Source: a virus. Taken from it: a stretch of DNA of 64,000 nt. The notes below the pieces were generated by a model that had not been told where the DNA came from, ran no database searches, and was given only the letters and a program-made list of their open reading frames with translations. This document shows, in pieces, positions 53,808-63,226 of this stretch. Positions within the stretch are counted from its first letter, which is position 1; every line of letters starts with the position of its first letter. A program made the position numbers and the translations under genes. The stretch spans positions 114,049 to 178,048 of IMG/VR virus record IMGVR_UViG_3300048672_000512. One strand, given 5' to 3'.

Positions 53808-56800
53808 ATGGCAACAAAGAAACTGAAAGATTACGACGCAAGTGCAATTCAGCATCTTGACTACGTTGATTCTGTGCGCAAGAAGCCGCAAATGTACATC
53901 GGACCTACCGATGGGGCCGGCATCTTCACGATTCTGCGTGAGGTCATGGACAACGCACGCGATGAATCGCTAGCTGGTTTCTGCTCTTCAGTTGAAACGT
54001 ACATCGATGACGATGGGTCTTACTGGGTTCTGGACGACGGGCGCGGAATGCCAGTGCAGCCGAAGAAGATCAAAGATCCTGTTTCTGGTAGTGAGCATTC
54101 CATGCCGGCTATTCAGGCCATTACTTCTCTTCTTCATGCAGGTGGAAAGTTTTCAAAGGAAGGTTCCTACAACAACACGGTTGGTTGCTTTACTGGAGAT
54201 ACAAGAATTCGACTGCTGGATGGTCGCGTTCTTTCTATGGAGGAACTGCATGCACATTGGACAAAGACAGGAAAGAACCTTCCAGTTCTTTCTTACAGCA
54301 CGCGCAAGCAGCGACTTGAGCCGTCTGAGATTTCGTTTTCACAACTGACCAAGAAAACGCGAGACTTGGTTGAAGTAACACTGGATAACGGCAACACGCT
54401 TCGCTGTACACCAGAGCATCCGTTTTACGTAAGGAGAGGTGGCTCCATAAAGCGAGTGCAAGCGCAGTATCTGCGGTTTGAAGACTCTCTAGTTACCACC
54501 TATTACTACAGCGATCGGCACGCTAGGGCTAACGATACTGAACACGGACCTCACGACTACTACAGTGTAACTGACAACGGCGTAGGTAAACCACTGCATC
54601 GACTTGTAGGCTCCTTTGATACAGAGAAGCGTGTGTTTGATGATCTGCGCGGACAGTCGATTGACATTCATCATAAGAACAAAAAAGTTCAGGATAACCG
54701 CCAGGATAACCTTGAACGCTTGTTCATGTCGGACCACCATCGTGAGCATGCAGAAGACCGGTCCGCGTTAGCCAGAGACAAGATTCTTGAAACTCAGGCT
54801 GACCTTAGAGCAGAAAACTCTAGTCGGTTTACGCGTCAGAACACACAAGAATGGCATAAGATTCAGTCGGGTCAGAAAAAAGCTCTAAAGATAGCGGCCC
54901 GAGCAATAGAAACCTACGGCGTATTCAACGCAGTCACTTACAGCGAATCTCGTAGAGGAACTGACGCAAAGTATTCAGTTGCAGTTTCCTACTTTGAATC
55001 GGAAGCAGATTTCGCTAAGGAAGCTAATAAGTTCTATAAAGACCTTGTCCAGAGAGTTGGCCGATCCTACCTTGCAGAGGACACTCTGTCTGGGTCTAAC
55101 GCTTCGCAAAAGACGCTGCAAGAAGTTGCAAAGGAAAAGAGCGACCTTGCTAGGTTTGACCTGTGGAAAAAGAAGCTTCTGAGCTTCAAGAACCCAAACA
55201 CCGTTACGCCTCAAGAGTGGAACGCACGTCGCTCTAGCGACTATAAGATGGGAACATCTGCCTATGCTTTACTTGCTAGTGTTACGACACTAGCTGCTCT
55301 GAAGCGCCATGTTCTGAATGGTGAAGCTCTGGTATGCTATGAGGACATGTCAGAAGAAGCAGTGACAATGCGCCGAGCAATTGCGGAGTATCGGGTTGCT
55401 ACTGAGCAGAAGCGCTACAGTTTTCTGAACTACAGCATTAGGCGACTCAGGTCTTCTCTTGGCGAGCGTTCTTACAGTACTGACCTGCATAGAAGCCTTC
55501 TTCGCAAGAGCCGCAACCTTCCTGACGAGATGATGTTCAAGATGTTTGCTTCCAAGCATCTGGGCCTTGAATTTGAAGACTGTACTGATGACGAAATTGA
55601 CACATTGATTCAATCATGGAACCATACTGTACTTGGCGTCAGAAAGTTGAAGCTACAGAATGCGGTTCCAGTGTATGACATAACTGTTGACCACACGCAC
55701 ACCTTCTTTGTTGAAGCTGGTGTTGGTGTTCATAAACCAAAGAACGGGAAACCTGACATTGACTGCTTCGCTTCAGGTGTTTTGGTTTCGAATAGCCACG
55801 GAGTTGGCATCAAGGCGACAAACTTTCTAAGTGAGTACTTTGAAGTCTACACTTTCAACGCTGGAGCATGGTGGTTTCTTGACTATGAATTTGGTCGCCT
55901 GTCAACTCCACTGAAGAAGGTCAAGGCACCGCTCAAGCCTGGAAGCAATTCAACGCTCAAGAAAGGTACGCTTGTACACTTCAAGCCAGACCTGTCGATT
56001 TTTAGCGAACCTGTGTTTCCGTCGATTCTTCTTACCGACTGGTCGCGCATTGCTTCGTACTTCACCCCAGGTTTCAAGATCACTCTTTCGCATCACTCTG
56101 GAAAGGTGCGAGAGTTTCAAGCTGACGGCCCTGCTCAGTATGTGGTGGACCGTCTAGCAAAGCTGCAAGCTACGCCATTGATTGACGTTGAACCCTTCAA
56201 CTTTGAATCTGGTTTGGTGTCTTGCGTGCTGCAGTTCACCGGTCACGATGGTTGTGACTTTGCACCATTCACCAATGGTCTGTACAACGCTGAAAAGGGT
56301 GTTCACTTCAATGCTTTCTTTCAAGCACTGATTGCAGCGTTGCAGCCTTTTGTGAAACGCAAGCAGGAGTTTTCAGCAACTGAACTTCGAGAAGGCATAG
56401 TTGGCCTGCTTAACGTCAAGCTTGAGGCTCCAAAGTTCTCAAGTCAGACCAAGGAAAAGCTGGTTGACGATCGTGCTGCTGAACCAGTCAAGGAATTGAT
56501 TCTTGAAGCCCTGACAGCATTCTTCAAGAAGAACAGGGCTCTAGCTGAAGCTGTGTGCGAACGCGCAGCAAAGCTCAAGGAACTGCGCAATCAGTTCACT
56601 GCTAGCAAGGCCGTGCTATCTACGCTTCGCAAGATTGCAAAGAAGGGGCTGCCCCTGAAAGCATGCACTGCCTACGACTGCAAACCTGAGGATAGAGAAC
56701 TGTATCTTGTTGAAGGGGACTCCGCAGCTGGCTGTTTTCTTGGTGACACAAAGGTTCGACTTATAAATGGTGTTTCGATGTCGTTTGAAGAAATGGTGCG

Positions 56801-57701
56801 TCAAAGCGAAGCTGGTAAGAAGCTGTACGGTTACGCCTACAACTTGAAAGAGTCTTGCACAGAAGTTATTGAATTTGACACACCGAGAATAACGAAGCAC
56901 GTAACTTCGTACGTTGAAGTAGAACTTTCAAACGGGGAAATTCTGCGTTGCACAGAGAATCATCCGTTCTTGTTGCGGTCAGGGGTCTATAAGGCAGCAG
57001 AGAAACTGGAACCTGGCGACTCGTTGATGACGCACGCAGAAGAGATACATGCAAAAGTAAGCGGTTTTAGCTCCGGAATAAAGCGCAGAGTAGCTATAGC
57101 ACCTGGAAAGAAGAATGGTGTTGGCACTATGGTGTATAAGAAAGCTGTTCTTCTTAACCGGAAAGAACGTCGCAAGCTAGCTACTGGAATGCACATACAT
57201 CATAAGGATAACGACAGCTTGAACGACGATCCAAGCAACCTTGAAGTATTGACGCAAGAAGACCATGTAAGAGAGCACTCAAATTCACCGGGTGCAGTTG
57301 TAGCTAGAGCTAACTTCGGTAAGTTGCATGCGGAAAGAATGAAGACAGACTTCTCTTATAAAGAAAAGTCTATTAAGAATACAACAGAAGTATTTCAGGA
57401 ATACTGGAGCGACGCATCCAACCGGAAACTGCAATCAAAAGCAGTAACCTACTACTTTAAGAATCTAGAAAATAGAAAGAAAACGGCAGAGGCTACTCGC
57501 ATAGGCATGCGCAAGTTGTGGCTCAGCATAGCTAGTCACGCTGTAGCAATCAAACTGGATCCTTTTACCGATGCCGGATTCGACGCGGCAAAGCAAAGAC
57601 TTGATTGCAAAACACCGATGAAGGCAAAGTCCTGGCAGAAGTTCTTTGATACAAAGAGCGCTGCTGTGAAGAGCGTAAAATCCTGGAAGGAAGTCAAATG
57701 A
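53808..57701 (+). CDS. Topoisomerase II ATPase subunit, N part, with intein 1 and intein 2-N
   Basis: 1297 residues: extein 1-126, intein 127-662, extein 663-975, N-half of a split intein 976-1297. The GyrB/ParE-type GHKL site shows Glu45 and Asn49 in EVMDNARDE, DDGRGMP at 76-82, and the HGVG loop restored by splicing (NNTVG joined to SHGVGIKATN). The TOPRIM start LVEGDSAAG ends at 975. T4-type phages also split this subunit, but into plain genes. Stop 57699-57701 overlaps the next ATG. Active enzyme needs intein 1 removed in cis and the second half joined in trans. It would relax or untangle replicating phage DNA. Confidence 0.9.
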   Translation: MATKKLKDYDASAIQHLDYVDSVRKKPQMYIGPTDGAGIFTILREVMDNARDESLAGFCSSVETYIDDDGSYWVLDDGRGMPVQPKKIKDPVSGSEHSMPAIQAITSLLHAGGKFSKEGSYNNTVGCFTGDTRIRLLDGRVLSMEELHAHWTKTGKNLPVLSYSTRKQRLEPSEISFSQLTKKTRDLVEVTLDNGNTLRCTPEHPFYVRRGGSIKRVQAQYLRFEDSLVTTYYYSDRHARANDTEHGPHDYYSVTDNGVGKPLHRLVGSFDTEKRVFDDLRGQSIDIHHKNKKVQDNRQDNLERLFMSDHHREHAEDRSALARDKILETQADLRAENSSRFTRQNTQEWHKIQSGQKKALKIAARAIETYGVFNAVTYSESRRGTDAKYSVAVSYFESEADFAKEANKFYKDLVQRVGRSYLAEDTLSGSNASQKTLQEVAKEKSDLARFDLWKKKLLSFKNPNTVTPQEWNARRSSDYKMGTSAYALLASVTTLAALKRHVLNGEALVCYEDMSEEAVTMRRAIAEYRVATEQKRYSFLNYSIRRLRSSLGERSYSTDLHRSLLRKSRNLPDEMMFKMFASKHLGLEFEDCTDDEIDTLIQSWNHTVLGVRKLKLQNAVPVYDITVDHTHTFFVEAGVGVHKPKNGKPDIDCFASGVLVSNSHGVGIKATNFLSEYFEVYTFNAGAWWFLDYEFGRLSTPLKKVKAPLKPGSNSTLKKGTLVHFKPDLSIFSEPVFPSILLTDWSRIASYFTPGFKITLSHHSGKVREFQADGPAQYVVDRLAKLQATPLIDVEPFNFESGLVSCVLQFTGHDGCDFAPFTNGLYNAEKGVHFNAFFQALIAALQPFVKRKQEFSATELREGIVGLLNVKLEAPKFSSQTKEKLVDDRAAEPVKELILEALTAFFKKNRALAEAVCERAAKLKELRNQFTASKAVLSTLRKIAKKGLPLKACTAYDCKPEDRELYLVEGDSAAGCFLGDTKVRLINGVSMSFEEMVRQSEAGKKLYGYAYNLKESCTEVIEFDTPRITKHVTSYVEVELSNGEILRCTENHPFLLRSGVYKAAEKLEPGDSLMTHAEEIHAKVSGFSSGIKRRVAIAPGKKNGVGTMVYKKAVLLNRKERRKLATGMHIHHKDNDSLNDDPSNLEVLTQEDHVREHSNSPGAVVARANFGKLHAERMKTDFSYKEKSIKNTTEVFQEYWSDASNRKLQSKAVTYYFKNLENRKKTAEATRIGMRKLWLSIASHAVAIKLDPFTDAGFDAAKQRLDCKTPMKAKSWQKFFDTKSAAVKSVKSWKEVK
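54186..55793 (+). mobile_element. Intein 1 (536 aa, HNH) in the GHKL ATP-binding loop
   Basis: Starts CFTGDTRIRLLDGR (Cys1); block B is NTLRCTPEHPFYV. The HNH endonuclease region has SIDIHHKNKKVQDNRQDNLE and DHHREH. Near the end, PVYDITVDHTHTFFVEAG is block F; the C-terminus is ASGVLVSN before Ser, with Ser instead of His in the penultimate place. The insertion separates NNTVG from SHGVG. Confidence 0.9.
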
Positions 57702-57931
57702 AAAAGTCGTCGTGTGAAAAGCTCACACTGTCTAAGGAAGACAGGCTGCGCCTTAAGAATTCAAAGGCTACAGGGAAGAGAACTAGGCGTTCTTTGCATC
57801 AGGGTGTTGTTACTAATACTATTACAGTAAAGTCTGTGAGGAAGGTCACATGCGATCCTATTCCAGTTTATGACGCTACGGTTCCGAAGTACCACAACTA
57901 TGCATTAGACGCTGGCATCTTTGTTCACAAC
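56733..57931 (+). mobile_element. Intein 2, split across two genes, in TOPRIM EGDSAAG
   Basis: N-half, 322 aa (56733-57701): CFLGDTKVRLING, block B EILRCTENHPFLLR, HNH region MHIHHKDNDSLNDDPSNLEV and DHVREH. C-half, 78 aa (57698-57931): starts MKKSSCEKLTL, with VYDATVPKYHNYALDAG (block F) and IFVHN before Thr. The halves meet at an ATGA overlap with a strong AAGGAAG ribosome site, so the C-half is started separately. Confidence 0.85.
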
Positions 57932-59872
57932 ACGGCAAAAGGCGCTAGAGACAAGCGATATCAAGAACTGCTTCCATTGCGAGGCAAGTTCCTGAACGCA
58001 TACAAAGCACCGATAGAAAAGCTTCTTGCGTCAGAAGAGGTTCTGAACATCCTTGCAACAATGGGTTTCGATCCTAAGGCAGAAGATCCTTACAAGAGTC
58101 TGCGAGTGAATCGACTGATCGCATTGGCTGATGCCGATGTTGACGGACCCTTGGGCCGTCATACTCCTGTAAAGCTTTGCGATGGAACCACCAAGACAAT
58201 GGAGCAATTAGCTTCCATGTGGGAGGAGGCTCCAGACGCACCTATTTGGGTATGGGGTGTTAACAAAAAACGCGAGCTAGTACCAGCTAGGGCTTACATG
58301 CCATCAGTGACAACTACCAGTAGTAGTTATATGAAAATCACTTTTGATGATGGCTCTGTAATAAGGTGTACAAACGGGCATGCGTGGCCGGTTAATAATC
58401 TGGAACGTAGCCGCACTAAAAAGACACATAAAGGGTTCAATTACTGTCTTGCAAAGAATCTGGTAGTTGGTGACTCGATACCCGACGTAACTTTCACCTT
58501 TAAGAATCACGACAACTACGATGGGTACAAGTCTTATATAGCACCTGATGGTAGCTACCGTCTTCTGCATAGAACCGTAATGCAAAACGTGAAATCAAAA
58601 CAGTATGCAAAGTACGCTGCAGCAAACACTGGTGTACACGGTGGCGCGATACACGTCCACCATAAAGACGAAAACAAGCTCAACAATTCACCCGAGAATC
58701 TAGAGTTTTTATCTCGCTATGAGCACTCCAGGTTGCATATTTCTGCATACGCAAAGGAGTACAACGGATCTGAGCGGCATATACAAGACTTGAATCGGTT
58801 CTGGGAAAACAACCCACAGGCTCGCGTCAAGGCTGCAGACAGAATCACGGCGTATAACAAGTCAGAAGCGCATCGTAAAGTTGTTTCTAGTATGAATGCT
58901 GACCCTGAAGTTAAGAGGAAGCAGGCCTTGGGGTCGCTGGCGCGGTTTTTTTTGGGACTTAAGGATGCAGGTGTTTCATTCAGTAAGCATGCAGGGTATC
59001 GGTTTGTCACTGGTAACTCGTATCGCGGAGCTGAACCCTCAATGAGCAAGTTTGATATCTCCATAGCGGATGTGACTGCGTTTATCAAAGAGCGGGGACT
59101 GAAACTTTCTGACGGGTACAAAGTACTACCTGTTTCTCAGACCGCAGGTAAACCCTATGCTAAGACTAAGCCTTCGCAGGAGGCCGCTCTTAAGAAGTTC
59201 CTCATACACTGCAAAAGAACAAGTTTGAAGTATGGCGTCCTCAATGAGGAGAAATATGAAGAGTACAGGATCGGAAGGTTTAGTAGATACCCGCGCTGGA
59301 ACTTAGGAAAAGATATTTTCAAGCAGGAGTATGGTTCTTTTTCAACGAGTCTACTGAAGAAAAAATTCCAGGCTGTCAATCACACAGTTGTTGCTGTAGA
59401 GCAAGTCACAAGTAAGACACCCCGAGACTTCTACTGCATGGCGGTTCCAGATACAGGAAACTTTCTGATAGAGGACAAAGATGGAAATGGGATTGTTACA
59501 GGTAACTGCCATATTAACATCCTGATTCTTTCACTGCTTCAAAAGCTGCTTCCGGACTTGTTTGCGCAGAAGCGTGTTTACTATGTAAAAGCGCCGGAGT
59601 ACTATGCAACCACAAAGTCCGGAGCGGTGTACGGATATACTAAGGAAGAAGTTCAAGCGCAGCTTGTTGCGCTCAAGGCTACGTCTGCTCAGATAAGCCA
59701 CATCAAGGGGTGGGGTGAAATCAATGCCGACATGTTGAAAGAACTAGCATTCAATCCTGAAACGCGCCGACTGGTTCTGATTGACTCTGACATGAGTGGA
59801 ACTGAAGAAGAGGCACTGTCTTTTCTGATGTCCAAGGACGTTTCTGCACGCAAGCAACTTCTGGGGATATAA
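57698..59872 (+). CDS. Topoisomerase II ATPase subunit, C part, with intein 2-C and intein 3
   Basis: 724 residues: intein 2 C-half 1-78, extein 79-150 (TAKGARDKRYQELLPLRGKF to LADADVDG, the second TOPRIM motif with Asp145, Asp147, Asp149), intein 3 at 151-603, extein 604-724 (CHINILILSLLQKLLPDLFA, YYVKAPEYYATTKSG). ATG 57698 has AAGGAAGTCAA upstream. After trans- and cis-splicing the whole subunit has about 632 extein residues, close to ParE size. Without splicing the TOPRIM site is not formed, so splicing gates topoisomerase activity. Confidence 0.9.
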   Translation: MKKSSCEKLTLSKEDRLRLKNSKATGKRTRRSLHQGVVTNTITVKSVRKVTCDPIPVYDATVPKYHNYALDAGIFVHNTAKGARDKRYQELLPLRGKFLNAYKAPIEKLLASEEVLNILATMGFDPKAEDPYKSLRVNRLIALADADVDGPLGRHTPVKLCDGTTKTMEQLASMWEEAPDAPIWVWGVNKKRELVPARAYMPSVTTTSSSYMKITFDDGSVIRCTNGHAWPVNNLERSRTKKTHKGFNYCLAKNLVVGDSIPDVTFTFKNHDNYDGYKSYIAPDGSYRLLHRTVMQNVKSKQYAKYAAANTGVHGGAIHVHHKDENKLNNSPENLEFLSRYEHSRLHISAYAKEYNGSERHIQDLNRFWENNPQARVKAADRITAYNKSEAHRKVVSSMNADPEVKRKQALGSLARFFLGLKDAGVSFSKHAGYRFVTGNSYRGAEPSMSKFDISIADVTAFIKERGLKLSDGYKVLPVSQTAGKPYAKTKPSQEAALKKFLIHCKRTSLKYGVLNEEKYEEYRIGRFSRYPRWNLGKDIFKQEYGSFSTSLLKKKFQAVNHTVVAVEQVTSKTPRDFYCMAVPDTGNFLIEDKDGNGIVTGNCHINILILSLLQKLLPDLFAQKRVYYVKAPEYYATTKSGAVYGYTKEEVQAQLVALKATSAQISHIKGWGEINADMLKELAFNPETRRLVLIDSDMSGTEEEALSFLMSKDVSARKQLLGI
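58148..59506 (+). mobile_element. Intein 3 (453 aa, HNH), class 3 type, in TOPRIM DADVDG
   Basis: Begins PLGRHTPVKLCDG, with Pro rather than Cys/Ser at position 1. Block B is CTNGHAWPV (Trp two after His), block F DFYCMAVPDTGNFLIE (Cys at the fourth place), block G NGIVTGN before Cys (Thr two before the final Asn). This Trp-Cys-Thr set marks class 3 inteins. HNH region: IHVHHKDENKLNNSPENLEF, YEHSRLH. Confidence 0.85.
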
Positions 59873-60415
59873 GTGGAAAACCAAAATCTTTTCAGTATGG
59901 ATTGTCTGACAGCATTCTATCAAACAACTCTGCAGTTGATAGAAACGCAGAACGCACTACGCCAGTCTTCGGGCTTTAAGCAAGTGTCAGGGCTCTTCAA
60001 TGCAGACCTGATTCCAAACGAATTGCATTACGTGGAGTATGAATGTAGAAACAAGACTCTGCGCTCAAGGCGAGCTACGCCGGTTCAGACATACGGTGTC
60101 ATAAACGATGTTGTGACTCTGACAATAGAAGCACCTGACGCTGCACTGCGTCTGACGCTATCTGCAAATTCAGTGCTGAATGTTGTCACTCTTGGAAATG
60201 GCCCGACAGACTACGGAGTACCAAAGCAAAAGAGTATTAGAGCTGCAAAGCTTCGAGCCGGAGACATGCTGCCAACTGTCAATCCAAACATTAATGCAAA
60301 AATTGTGAAGGTGGAACACAAGAAAGAAGACACGCAAGTGTTTGCTTTTCCTCTTGATCTTAACAACGTGGTCAGCTACTACGGCGGTGTCATTATAAAC
60401 AGTGGATTCGACTAA
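59873..60415 (+). CDS. Hint-like domain protein between topoisomerase genes
   Basis: 180 residues from GTG 59873, directly after the previous stop (CTGGGGATATAA as ribosome site). An unrecognised helical N-terminal 55 residues is followed by a part that follows the Hint/intein fold in outline: ALRLTLSANSVLNVV, SIRAAKLRAGDMLPTV, and KIVKVEHKKEDTQVFAFPLD to VVSYYGGVIINSG. The nucleophile, block B His and terminal Asn are not in place, so splicing is unlikely. It may be a degenerate intein relic or a domesticated partner of the topoisomerase. Tentative. Confidence 0.5.
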   Translation: MENQNLFSMDCLTAFYQTTLQLIETQNALRQSSGFKQVSGLFNADLIPNELHYVEYECRNKTLRSRRATPVQTYGVINDVVTLTIEAPDAALRLTLSANSVLNVVTLGNGPTDYGVPKQKSIRAAKLRAGDMLPTVNPNINAKIVKVEHKKEDTQVFAFPLDLNNVVSYYGGVIINSGFD

Positions 60416-63226
60416 ATGGCGACACGAAGAAAGCAAGCTGTAAACGCTGCTGACGTAGCACCTATTGCCACGCAGCAGTTGATACCTAGCGTAAAGACCT
60501 GGTTAACTCAGTACGGACAAGAAGTTAACGAAGAGCGCTCCATTCCAGACTTTAGAGACGGTCTGAAGCCTGTGCATCGTCGTTCTCTGTGGGCAATGCA
60601 GCAAGTTGTCACTTCTCAGAATAGGCTTATCAAGTCTGCTCGCGTAGTTGGCAATACTATTGGTCAGCTGCATCCGCACGGAGACACTGCGTGTCTCCGA
60701 GGAAACACACTGGTACCATTGCTTAGCGGAACCAATGTAACTATAAAGGAACTAGCTGACAAGAAGTCCGGACCTAAGTGGGTTCTTTCTTACGATGAAG
60801 AAACAAAGTCACTGGTACCGGCACTAGCGCATTCTTGGCGCAAGGCAAAGGTTACTAGGAAGATGTTGCGTATTCACCTGACGTCAGGTGAAGTTATTGA
60901 AGTTACACCTGAACATAAGCTGATAAGTAGCGACCGAGGTTGGCAAGAAGCAAAAGACCTATCAATTGGAGACACCCTAATTGGTGGGGCGCTGATAGAC
61001 ACGGACGGCTACAAAGAAGTGACTCTCAATACCAAGTTCCGTAAAAAGGTGCACATGCTAGTTGGTGACGCCAAGTACGGAGGCAGAGAGGATGACGAGG
61101 TATATCATCATATCGATGAAAATACGCAAAACAATCGCCCTTCTAATCTGCAACTACTTTCAAGAGCAGAGCACGCAATAGCGCATGAAGATAACTACTT
61201 AGACGGGTTGAGCCTAGGTAGAAAACGCATGTTTGCTGAAGACTCATCACTGCGTACTGCAATCCGAAAAAAGAATAGCACTCTCACTAAGGAGGTTAGT
61301 GCGCACCATGGCATACTGATAGCTCTTAAGGCTATTCGCACCCTGCAAGCTAGTAACATTGAGGTAACAGAGGATAATTACGAAAAGCTGCGCCCATGCG
61401 TCTATAATCTTACAAGGCTAGAGACGCTGTATAAAAAAGGTCATAGCTTCGACGAACTATGCTCTCTTGCAAAGGACTTCAAGCTTGACACTAATAAGGC
61501 TAAAGGTTTCACCTCAAAAATAAAAAAAGCACGGAAAGGCACTAGAGTACAAGTGCCTTCTAAGAGCAAGGATCCAAATGGTTTACTGTACGCTAGGCTT
61601 GGTAGCGTGCTGGGAAAACTTCTTGCTATTCACGGAAGTCTGAACTCTGTTGACTGGGATACTTATACAGCGTATGTTAGACGTGAGCCTAGCATGAGCG
61701 CAAACTTTAATAGAGTAGCTTACTCAAAACCGGAAAGGCTTAAGTCGCTTTTTAGTATCAATACAGTTGCAGAGTTAGCTGCTAAGATACCGACATGGTG
61801 TCTAAATGCCGTGGCTAGATTGGAGTATGTTACTCTAGAAGCTAAAGAGACATTCTACGACTTTACCGTTGACAACTATGAAAACATGATTGTGTTTTCA
61901 TCAAACGGTCAAAAGTCTGGAAACTTCTTAGTGGTTCACAACTGCTATAACGCCATAGTTACACTCACTACCTCGTTTGCACCCGTTATTCAAGGTGAAG
62001 GTAACTGGGGTACGCAGATAGACAGCGCAGCCGCCTACCGATATACAAACTGCAACCTCACTGAGCTTGGAAAGCTAAACTTTCACCATTACTTTCTTCC
62101 GTGCGCAGATCTGATTCCTAACTTTGACGGTTCTTCAAAGGAACCGTTAGTGCTTCCTGCTCTGCTACCGCAGTTGCTTTTCAACGGAAGCTCAGGTATC
62201 GGTGTTGGTGTGACAACGTCTATTCCAAGCTTTGAGCCAGCATCCGTTTTGAAAATAATGATTCGACTGCTCAACGGCGAGTCATTATCAACAGAGGACT
62301 ACGCAAAGGGTCTGAAGTTTCAAGAAGTGTATGGTGGTCAACCTATCAAGTCGAAAGAGAATGCAGAAGCGATTCGTGCTTTCTTTGAGGGTCACAAAGG
62401 CTACGTTGACTGGAACAGCGAAATAGAGATAGACAGGGACAGCAAGACAGTGACCATCCTTGCATTCGCGCCAGGTATCTCGCCGCTGAACTTTCTTGAA
62501 AACAAAGTAAAGCCCAGAGACGAAGTGCAGAATGTGTCAGCAGGCGACGTTGGAATGTCATTTGTTATTCGCTGCAAGAAAACGCTGAACTACAATGACT
62601 TTGACAAGTTCGTTCTCTTTCTCAAGAAAGGACTGACCTGCAGAAATCACTACGAAGTGTACGTGACGGAACGTCTTCTAGACGAAGGGTCCGGCGACAA
62701 CTATCACGTCAACTTCTTTGCTATCTCTATACCGAACTTGATAGTTCGTTGGTTGAAGTGGCGATGCAAGCTGGAAGCGCGCTCGCTAGACTTCCGAATC
62801 GAGAAAACGCAAAGTCAGATCGCGTTCACTGAACTGATGATCCTAGCTTGCGACAACCTGCAGATCATCATGGATGCTTTGCGACGCGAAGACACTGCAG
62901 ACTACATTGCAAAGAAGTTGAAGATCAGCATTGAACAGGCAAACGTGATCCTTGATCGAAAGGTTCGCAACCTGTCAAAGCTTGACAACAGCAAGTTGAG
63001 GCTCAGAGTCAAAGAGTTGAAGTCTCTGTTAGCTAGCCTGAAGACGAAGCGCAAGAAGCCCTCGATTGAAGTCAAAGCTTTCCTAGAGTCAACGATTGAC
63101 CGGTTCAAACTTGCCGAAAAGTGGATCGGTACTAGACAGTACAGGCTGCAAGCCGGAACTGCTAACGTCGTGTACACGGACCCCTTACTAGATAGTCAAC
63201 CGTCAGACTTAGAGGCAGCACCCTGA
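60416..63226 (+). CDS. Topoisomerase II cleavage subunit (GyrA/ParC-like) with intein 4
   Basis: 936 residues: extein 1-92, intein 93-509, extein 510-936, together 519 residues, nearer to T4 gp52 than to full GyrA. Family marks: IPDFRDGLKPVHRRSLWAM, LHPHGDTA joined to CYNAIVTLT, GEGNWGTQIDSAAAYRYTNC with catalytic Tyr543 after Arg542, and a helical tower region near 820-900. The beta-pinwheel of bacterial GyrA is missing, so relaxation and decatenation rather than supercoiling are likely. Starts directly after the Hint-like gene (TAAATG). Confidence 0.92.
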   Translation: MATRRKQAVNAADVAPIATQQLIPSVKTWLTQYGQEVNEERSIPDFRDGLKPVHRRSLWAMQQVVTSQNRLIKSARVVGNTIGQLHPHGDTACLRGNTLVPLLSGTNVTIKELADKKSGPKWVLSYDEETKSLVPALAHSWRKAKVTRKMLRIHLTSGEVIEVTPEHKLISSDRGWQEAKDLSIGDTLIGGALIDTDGYKEVTLNTKFRKKVHMLVGDAKYGGREDDEVYHHIDENTQNNRPSNLQLLSRAEHAIAHEDNYLDGLSLGRKRMFAEDSSLRTAIRKKNSTLTKEVSAHHGILIALKAIRTLQASNIEVTEDNYEKLRPCVYNLTRLETLYKKGHSFDELCSLAKDFKLDTNKAKGFTSKIKKARKGTRVQVPSKSKDPNGLLYARLGSVLGKLLAIHGSLNSVDWDTYTAYVRREPSMSANFNRVAYSKPERLKSLFSINTVAELAAKIPTWCLNAVARLEYVTLEAKETFYDFTVDNYENMIVFSSNGQKSGNFLVVHNCYNAIVTLTTSFAPVIQGEGNWGTQIDSAAAYRYTNCNLTELGKLNFHHYFLPCADLIPNFDGSSKEPLVLPALLPQLLFNGSSGIGVGVTTSIPSFEPASVLKIMIRLLNGESLSTEDYAKGLKFQEVYGGQPIKSKENAEAIRAFFEGHKGYVDWNSEIEIDRDSKTVTILAFAPGISPLNFLENKVKPRDEVQNVSAGDVGMSFVIRCKKTLNYNDFDKFVLFLKKGLTCRNHYEVYVTERLLDEGSGDNYHVNFFAISIPNLIVRWLKWRCKLEARSLDFRIEKTQSQIAFTELMILACDNLQIIMDALRREDTADYIAKKLKISIEQANVILDRKVRNLSKLDNSKLRLRVKELKSLLASLKTKRKKPSIEVKAFLESTIDRFKLAEKWIGTRQYRLQAGTANVVYTDPLLDSQPSDLEAAP
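60692..61942 (+). mobile_element. Intein 4 (417 aa, HNH) in the GyrA HPHGD motif
   Basis: Starts CLRGNTLVPLLSGTNVTIKE; block B is EVIEVTPEHKLIS. HNH-type region VYHHIDENTQNNRPSNLQLL and AEHAIAHE. End: ETFYDFTVDNYENMIVFSSN, then FLVVHN before Cys510. Insertion between HPHGDTA and CYNAIV. Confidence 0.92.

Follow-up and report, generated by a model that had tools for sequence, protein, structure and literature searches.

The final 64 kb (64,000 nucleotides [nt]; here, the window) of the 178,048-bp IMG/VR virus record IMGVR_UViG_3300048672_000512 encodes a GyrB-type topoisomerase large subunit on two overlapping open reading frames (ORFs). At the break the gene carries intein B, which is probably a natural, trans-splicing, class 1 split intein. 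Its N-half ends ORF1, its C-half opens ORF2, and a predicted HNH homing endonuclease domain lies in frame within the N-half. Phages are already known to carry split inteins in replication genes with an endonuclease at the point of breakage, but in the literature searched, which was mostly open-access, we met with no description of a natural one whose endonuclease is in frame with either half. By baseplate and GyrB proteins, the closest listed isolates to this phage are the jumbo myoviruses BcepSaruman and BcepSauron, with 30 to 42% identity.

Anatomy of intein B and proposed splicing

An earlier note, made from the sequence without database searches, had proposed that a natural split intein divides a topoisomerase at its TOPRIM domain, and profile matches, splicing residues, and split relatives at the same site agree with this. 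The Cys1 that it read directly after EGDSAAG lies at 56733; from there the N-half runs in frame to 57698 and is followed by a TGA stop (57699 to 57701). The stop was correctly described as overlapping a well-placed ATG, since the junction reads ATGA from 57698, with AAGGA 6 nt ahead, and the ORF2 frame is −1 relative to that of ORF1. The profile search that the note had suggested for both halves gave matches to intein N-terminal and C-terminal profiles over the NCBIfam cut-offs. The halves lie on separate ORFs with the break between blocks B and F, as in natural split inteins, and the class 1 residue set is complete: Cys1, TxxH (T-E-N-H), the Asp and His of block F, the VHN end, and a +1 Thr.

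Residues 1 to 100 of the N-half make up the Hint N-part with blocks A and B, for which an AlphaFold model was convincing (predicted local distance difference test [pLDDT] in the blocks mostly 76 to 88). Next come HNH_3, the HNH domain of the earlier note (ORF1 residues 1127 to 1155; E = 3e-7, over the Pfam cut-off), and then a helical tail; with HNH_3 in the N-half, the intein departs from the usual split form of endonuclease-free halves. The candidate endonuclease has the His-His, Asn, and His expected of an HNH homing endonuclease. The tail ends in SWQKFF, which matches NWKKLF, the closing motif of the endonuclease portion in the intein of Bacillus phage SP-15, and the N-half stops 17 codons past SWQKFF, about where homologues enter the Int-C strand. 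The C-half consists of a basic leader of ~40 amino acids (aa; net charge +9) and a 38-aa Int-C core ending VHN/T. The note's placing of a C-half at the start of the second gene, followed by TAKGARDKR, stands, while its block label needs correction: IFVHN belongs to block G; block F reads PVYDATVPKYHN. A NUMOD3-like identity for the leader was dropped for lack of Pfam support.

Once intein B and two contiguous inteins, A and C, are removed, the remaining 632 aa of GyrB are colinear with BcepSaruman GyrB (40% identity across 547 aa, followed by 38% across the final 121 aa) and free of gaps at the B junction. Joined in this way, the sequence has the parts of a type IIA large subunit, namely a GHKL ATPase, a transducer, and a TOPRIM domain with its E and DxD.

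From this layout we propose that a single message serves both ORFs and that ribosomes finishing ORF1 reinitiate at the ATGA, where ORF2 has a ribosome site of its own. The first ~100 aa past Cys1 (the Hint N-half) would pair with the Int-C core (the last ~38 aa of the C-half), and class 1 trans-splicing would ligate EGDSAAG to TAKGARDK and so make the TOPRIM domain whole again. Both the HNH domain and its helical tail would stay on the N-half and depart with it upon excision. The endonuclease may cut intein-less topoisomerase genes, so that the whole two-gene insertion is copied (homing). Splicing, cleavage, and ORF2 translation are all read here from sequence features. If they occur, the N-half of this split intein would itself be a mobile element, and the replication enzyme would become active only after one trans-splicing and two cis-splicing events.

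Table 1. Predicted features of the topoisomerase locus (window positions)
Feature	Position	Strand	Support
ORF1: N-terminal part of type IIA topoisomerase large subunit (GyrB-like); holds cis intein A, ends with intein B N-half	53808..57701	+	
Intein A: 536 aa, cis, contiguous, in ATPase domain, TVG/C...VLVSN/SHGVG	54186..55793	+	
TOPRIM motif EGDSAAG, N-extein end at split site	56712..56732	+	
Intein B N-half: 322 aa; Hint-N blocks A and B (~100 aa), HNH domain, helical tail	56733..57698	+	
HNH_3 homing endonuclease domain in N-half, HHKDND..LNDDPSNLEVL..DHVREH	57186..57272	+	Pfam PF13392 E 3.3e-7; PHROG HNH families
Shine-Dalgarno-like AAGGA, 6 nt ahead of ORF2 start	57687..57691	+	
ATGA: ORF2 start overlapping ORF1 TGA stop	57698..57701	+	
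ORF2: C-terminal part of topoisomerase large subunit; opens with intein B C-half, holds cis intein C	57698..59872	+	
Intein B C-half: 78 aa; basic leader ~40 aa, Int-C core TITVKSVRKV...PVYDATVPKYHNYALDAGIFVHN	57698..57931	+	TIGR01443 E 4.6e-11; alignment
C-extein, remaining TOPRIM, TAKGARDKR...DADVDG	57932..58147	+	
Intein C: 453 aa, cis, contiguous, class 3 signature with HNH	58148..59506	+	
GyrA-like partner subunit with cis intein D at 60692-61942	60416..63226	+	

Alleles at the GyrB insertion site

Relatives were recovered by scanning IMG/VR and GTDB contigs with degenerate patterns and profiles (L-numbers denote contigs of this study). Together they form, at this very insertion point, a series of alleles: empty (L019, L031, L044, and many more), continuous without a recognised endonuclease (L003, L136, L137, and the longer L011), continuous with HNH (L061 and L062), split with a free-standing gene, plain split, and the split with HNH of the window. 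Canonical splits were found in five large-phage contigs (L005 to L009), with halves up to 50 to 53% identical to those of intein B. They share with it the insertion point, homologous Hint halves, and a C-half on its own ORF, but their N-halves are free of endonuclease and end ~101 to 105 aa past Cys1. No gene lies between the halves in L005; a convergent free-standing one does in L006, L007, L009, and, as far as it was read, L008. Those of L006, L007, and L009, the three tested in full, encode DUF7487 repeats and a TnsA-like nuclease domain (Pfam). Among the split inteins found at this site, only that of the window has its endonuclease in frame; the earlier note had called split inteins that keep theirs unusual.

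Other searches added little: no DNA-level relative was present in the phage collection, a single-protein search of viral contigs with ORF2 returned one relative only (an empty allele), a DNA pattern for the C-junction gave no match, and the only additions from a second N-junction pattern were chance hits in unrelated sequence. Two further candidates were set aside: L004 begins at the motif, but its intein gives way to unrelated sequence after 42 aa, and L010/L025 has HNH but runs past the contig end. A canonical split intein also occurs in a different phage protein (L066, 2865 onward; N-half of 94 aa, C-half ending HNSKDVADA).

Reality of the break and competing explanations

The arrangement around the break makes it very probable that the split is real. 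The ORF2 frame is shut upstream by a stop at 57647 and both frames are open solely at ~57650 to 57701, so any frame-restoring indel must lie within that interval. An AAGGA-type match of at least 5 precedes only ~2% of 537 internal ATGs in the phage's genes. Single deletions simulated in these genes produced an ATGA junction in 6.4% of cases, one with a match of at least 4 in 0.7%, and one with a match of at least 5 in 4 of 36,796. By codon usage, the ORF1 frame was preferred up to its stop and the ORF2 frame from its ATG, with the best switch at 57696 to 57698, although this optimum is shallow and a switch at 57666 to 57680 scores nearly equal.

That shallow optimum is one of several points against intein B as a natural split intein. 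The break is known from a single genome. The earlier note had suggested checking related phages for it, and the same insertion site is indeed split in five contigs, but neither the scans of IMG/VR and GTDB contigs nor the other searches above turned up a second phage with the identical ATGA break. The AlphaFold models of the halves are of low confidence outside Hint-N. Net charge is also unlike that of the canonical splits: the N-half carries −3, compared with −7 to −11 in canonical splits and +1 to −4 in continuous inteins, and the C-half carries +1 in its core and +9 in its leader. Opposite charges are how the halves of evolved split inteins find each other (PMC11923092); here the N-half charge is continuous-like and charge pairing is weak apart from the leader. 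The low N-half charge suggests a young split, but, and this is the most serious of these points, it is also expected if an indel artefact has interrupted a continuous intein.

Phylogenetic placement with outgroups counts in favour of the split. In a Hint tree, the five canonical splits formed one clade and six continuous inteins another (both 100/99), with intein B between them. When three outgroup inteins were added, intein B was sister to the canonical split clade (88/87), in a tree of 137 columns with long outgroup branches; grouping it with the continuous inteins instead costs 14 log units and is not rejected (approximately unbiased test, p-AU 0.075). The extein tree is discordant with the Hint tree, placing the window with L005 and the empty allele L044, as expected because an intein is a mobile element.

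We consider it unlikely that an assembly or sequencing indel caused the break, in which case the true gene would hold one continuous HNH intein with one base missing at ~57650 to 57698. Continuous HNH inteins do occupy the same site (L061 and L062), the N-half charge resembles theirs, both frames are open across ~50 nt, and a second example of the break is lacking. Nevertheless, the combination of AAGGA and ATGA is rare in simulated deletions. Several very long frames of the record are intact, and its inteins other than B, eight of nine, each lie in one unbroken frame of roughly 740 to 2046 codons, so the assembly is not indel-ridden. In the continuous homologues (SP-15 and L061) the endonuclease tail reaches the Int-C strand within ~14 to 18 residues, whereas the window has ~40 extra residues past the break. 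A comparison case is the terminase-type HNH intein of L086 (near 3110), rejected as a second HNH-fused split: its break, probably a frameshift, sequencing error, or pseudogene, has neither an ATG nor a ribosome site nearby. A real but recent frameshift, leaving a broken intein that splices poorly or not at all (through decay or as a passing mutant), seems less probable still. Low charge segregation, the uniqueness of the case, and the long basic leader of the C-half would fit it, but the splicing residues and extein motifs are all retained, in its own frame the leader looks like coding sequence, and the gene affected is a core replication gene.

The earlier note held that functional topoisomerase can form only by trans-splicing. 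This was too strong, since the T4 topoisomerase, whose large subunit is split in a critical region, works from unligated gp39 and gp60 (PMC2988022). By analogy, the two products of the window could assemble unjoined, with inert intein halves. We think this very improbable: the break falls within EGDSAAG/TAKG, and 322 plus 78 foreign residues would remain in the TOPRIM core. Because the break is in the catalytic motif itself and intact splicing blocks stand at both edges, splicing is far likelier than noncovalent assembly. The explanation to which we give least credence is programmed −1 frameshifting that yields a full-length cis precursor beside ORF1; the frames overlap by ~50 nt and differ by −1, but a reading of the sequence finds no slippery heptamer ahead of the TGA (GTC AAA TGA), and the ORF2 start has its own ribosome site.

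Relation to known inteins and possible origin

Intein B shares with the continuous HNH inteins (L061, L062, and that of the SP-15 gene SP15_022) the order Hint-N, HNH, helical tail, and Int-C, but these occupy one frame and pass leader-free from tail to Int-C, whereas intein B has two frames and a leader. The Npu and Ssp DnaE inteins resemble it in their class 1 trans-splicing architecture and in being divided between blocks B and F, but lack an endonuclease, and their halves are encoded by two genes far apart in the genome. T4 gp39/gp60 with mobA is another case of a homing-endonuclease event splitting the large subunit of a phage topoisomerase, although intein and ligation are absent. In the fractured genes reportedly described by Dassa et al. 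in 2009, a phage replication gene is broken by a split intein and a separate endonuclease gene lies between the halves. A GIY-YIG gene separates the halves of the AceL NrdHF split intein (PMC7891396), and a free-standing HNH ORF those of MIJ3 PolB (PMC6892783). All three resemble the window in that a split intein interrupts a phage replication gene and an endonuclease sits at the interruption, but their endonuclease is a gene of its own, as it is between the halves in L006, L007, and L009, whereas that of the window is fused in frame to the N-half and its ORFs overlap by 4 nt. A review divides inteins into full-length inteins with an endonuclease, mini-inteins, and split inteins (PMC7765530). 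Perhaps the nearest hint in the literature to a split that keeps its endonuclease is NrdD of Lactococcus phage 949, in which one of two gene pieces has endonuclease remnants and an intein; there the break is due to an intron, not an intein (PMC3653736).

Intein B probably originated from a continuous HNH intein, a type still present at the site, that was broken just past the endonuclease tail. Whether it is an intermediate between the continuous HNH inteins and the endonuclease-free splits at the same site, still with an in-frame homing endonuclease, we regard as evenly balanced. If it is, the split can come first, downstream of the endonuclease, which is later lost or swapped for a free-standing one. 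Of the ways in which a continuous intein may become a split one, the fractured-gene route inserts a free-standing endonuclease at the break; the present locus points to another, by which an intein would split and keep its own endonuclease in frame. Because one insertion site offers all allele types in related phages, the order of steps becomes testable.

Topoisomerase locus and other inteins of the record

The large subunit is interrupted by three inteins, A in the ATPase domain, B at EGDSAAG/TAKGARDK (split), and C after DADVDG, and its two ORFs are followed by a 180-aa ORF and the GyrA-like subunit. The 180-aa ORF (59873 to 60415) had no family or phage match; in BcepSaruman the GyrB and GyrA genes adjoin directly. 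The C terminus of intein A is odd, in that a block-G-like GVGVHK is followed by 18 further residues ending VLVSN/S (55680 to 55793). Intein C looks like a class 3 intein with an HNH domain, judging from its Pro1, block B Trp (GHAWPV), block F Cys (FYCMAV), and block G Thr (VTGN); the usual endonuclease of class 3 inteins is LAGLIDADG (PMC7891396). Shorter Pro1 inteins with a block F Cys occupy the same DxD site in BcepSaruman GyrB and in L005.

Nine inteins occur in the 178-kb record (G000:C1 26132, 27707, 36837, 96354(-), 103801(-), 168234, 170781, 172208, and 174740). Three are in GyrB, two in ribonucleotide reductase, and one each in GyrA, a SNF2-type helicase, a probable portal, and a probable terminase large subunit, the last two hosts being named from sequence reading alone.

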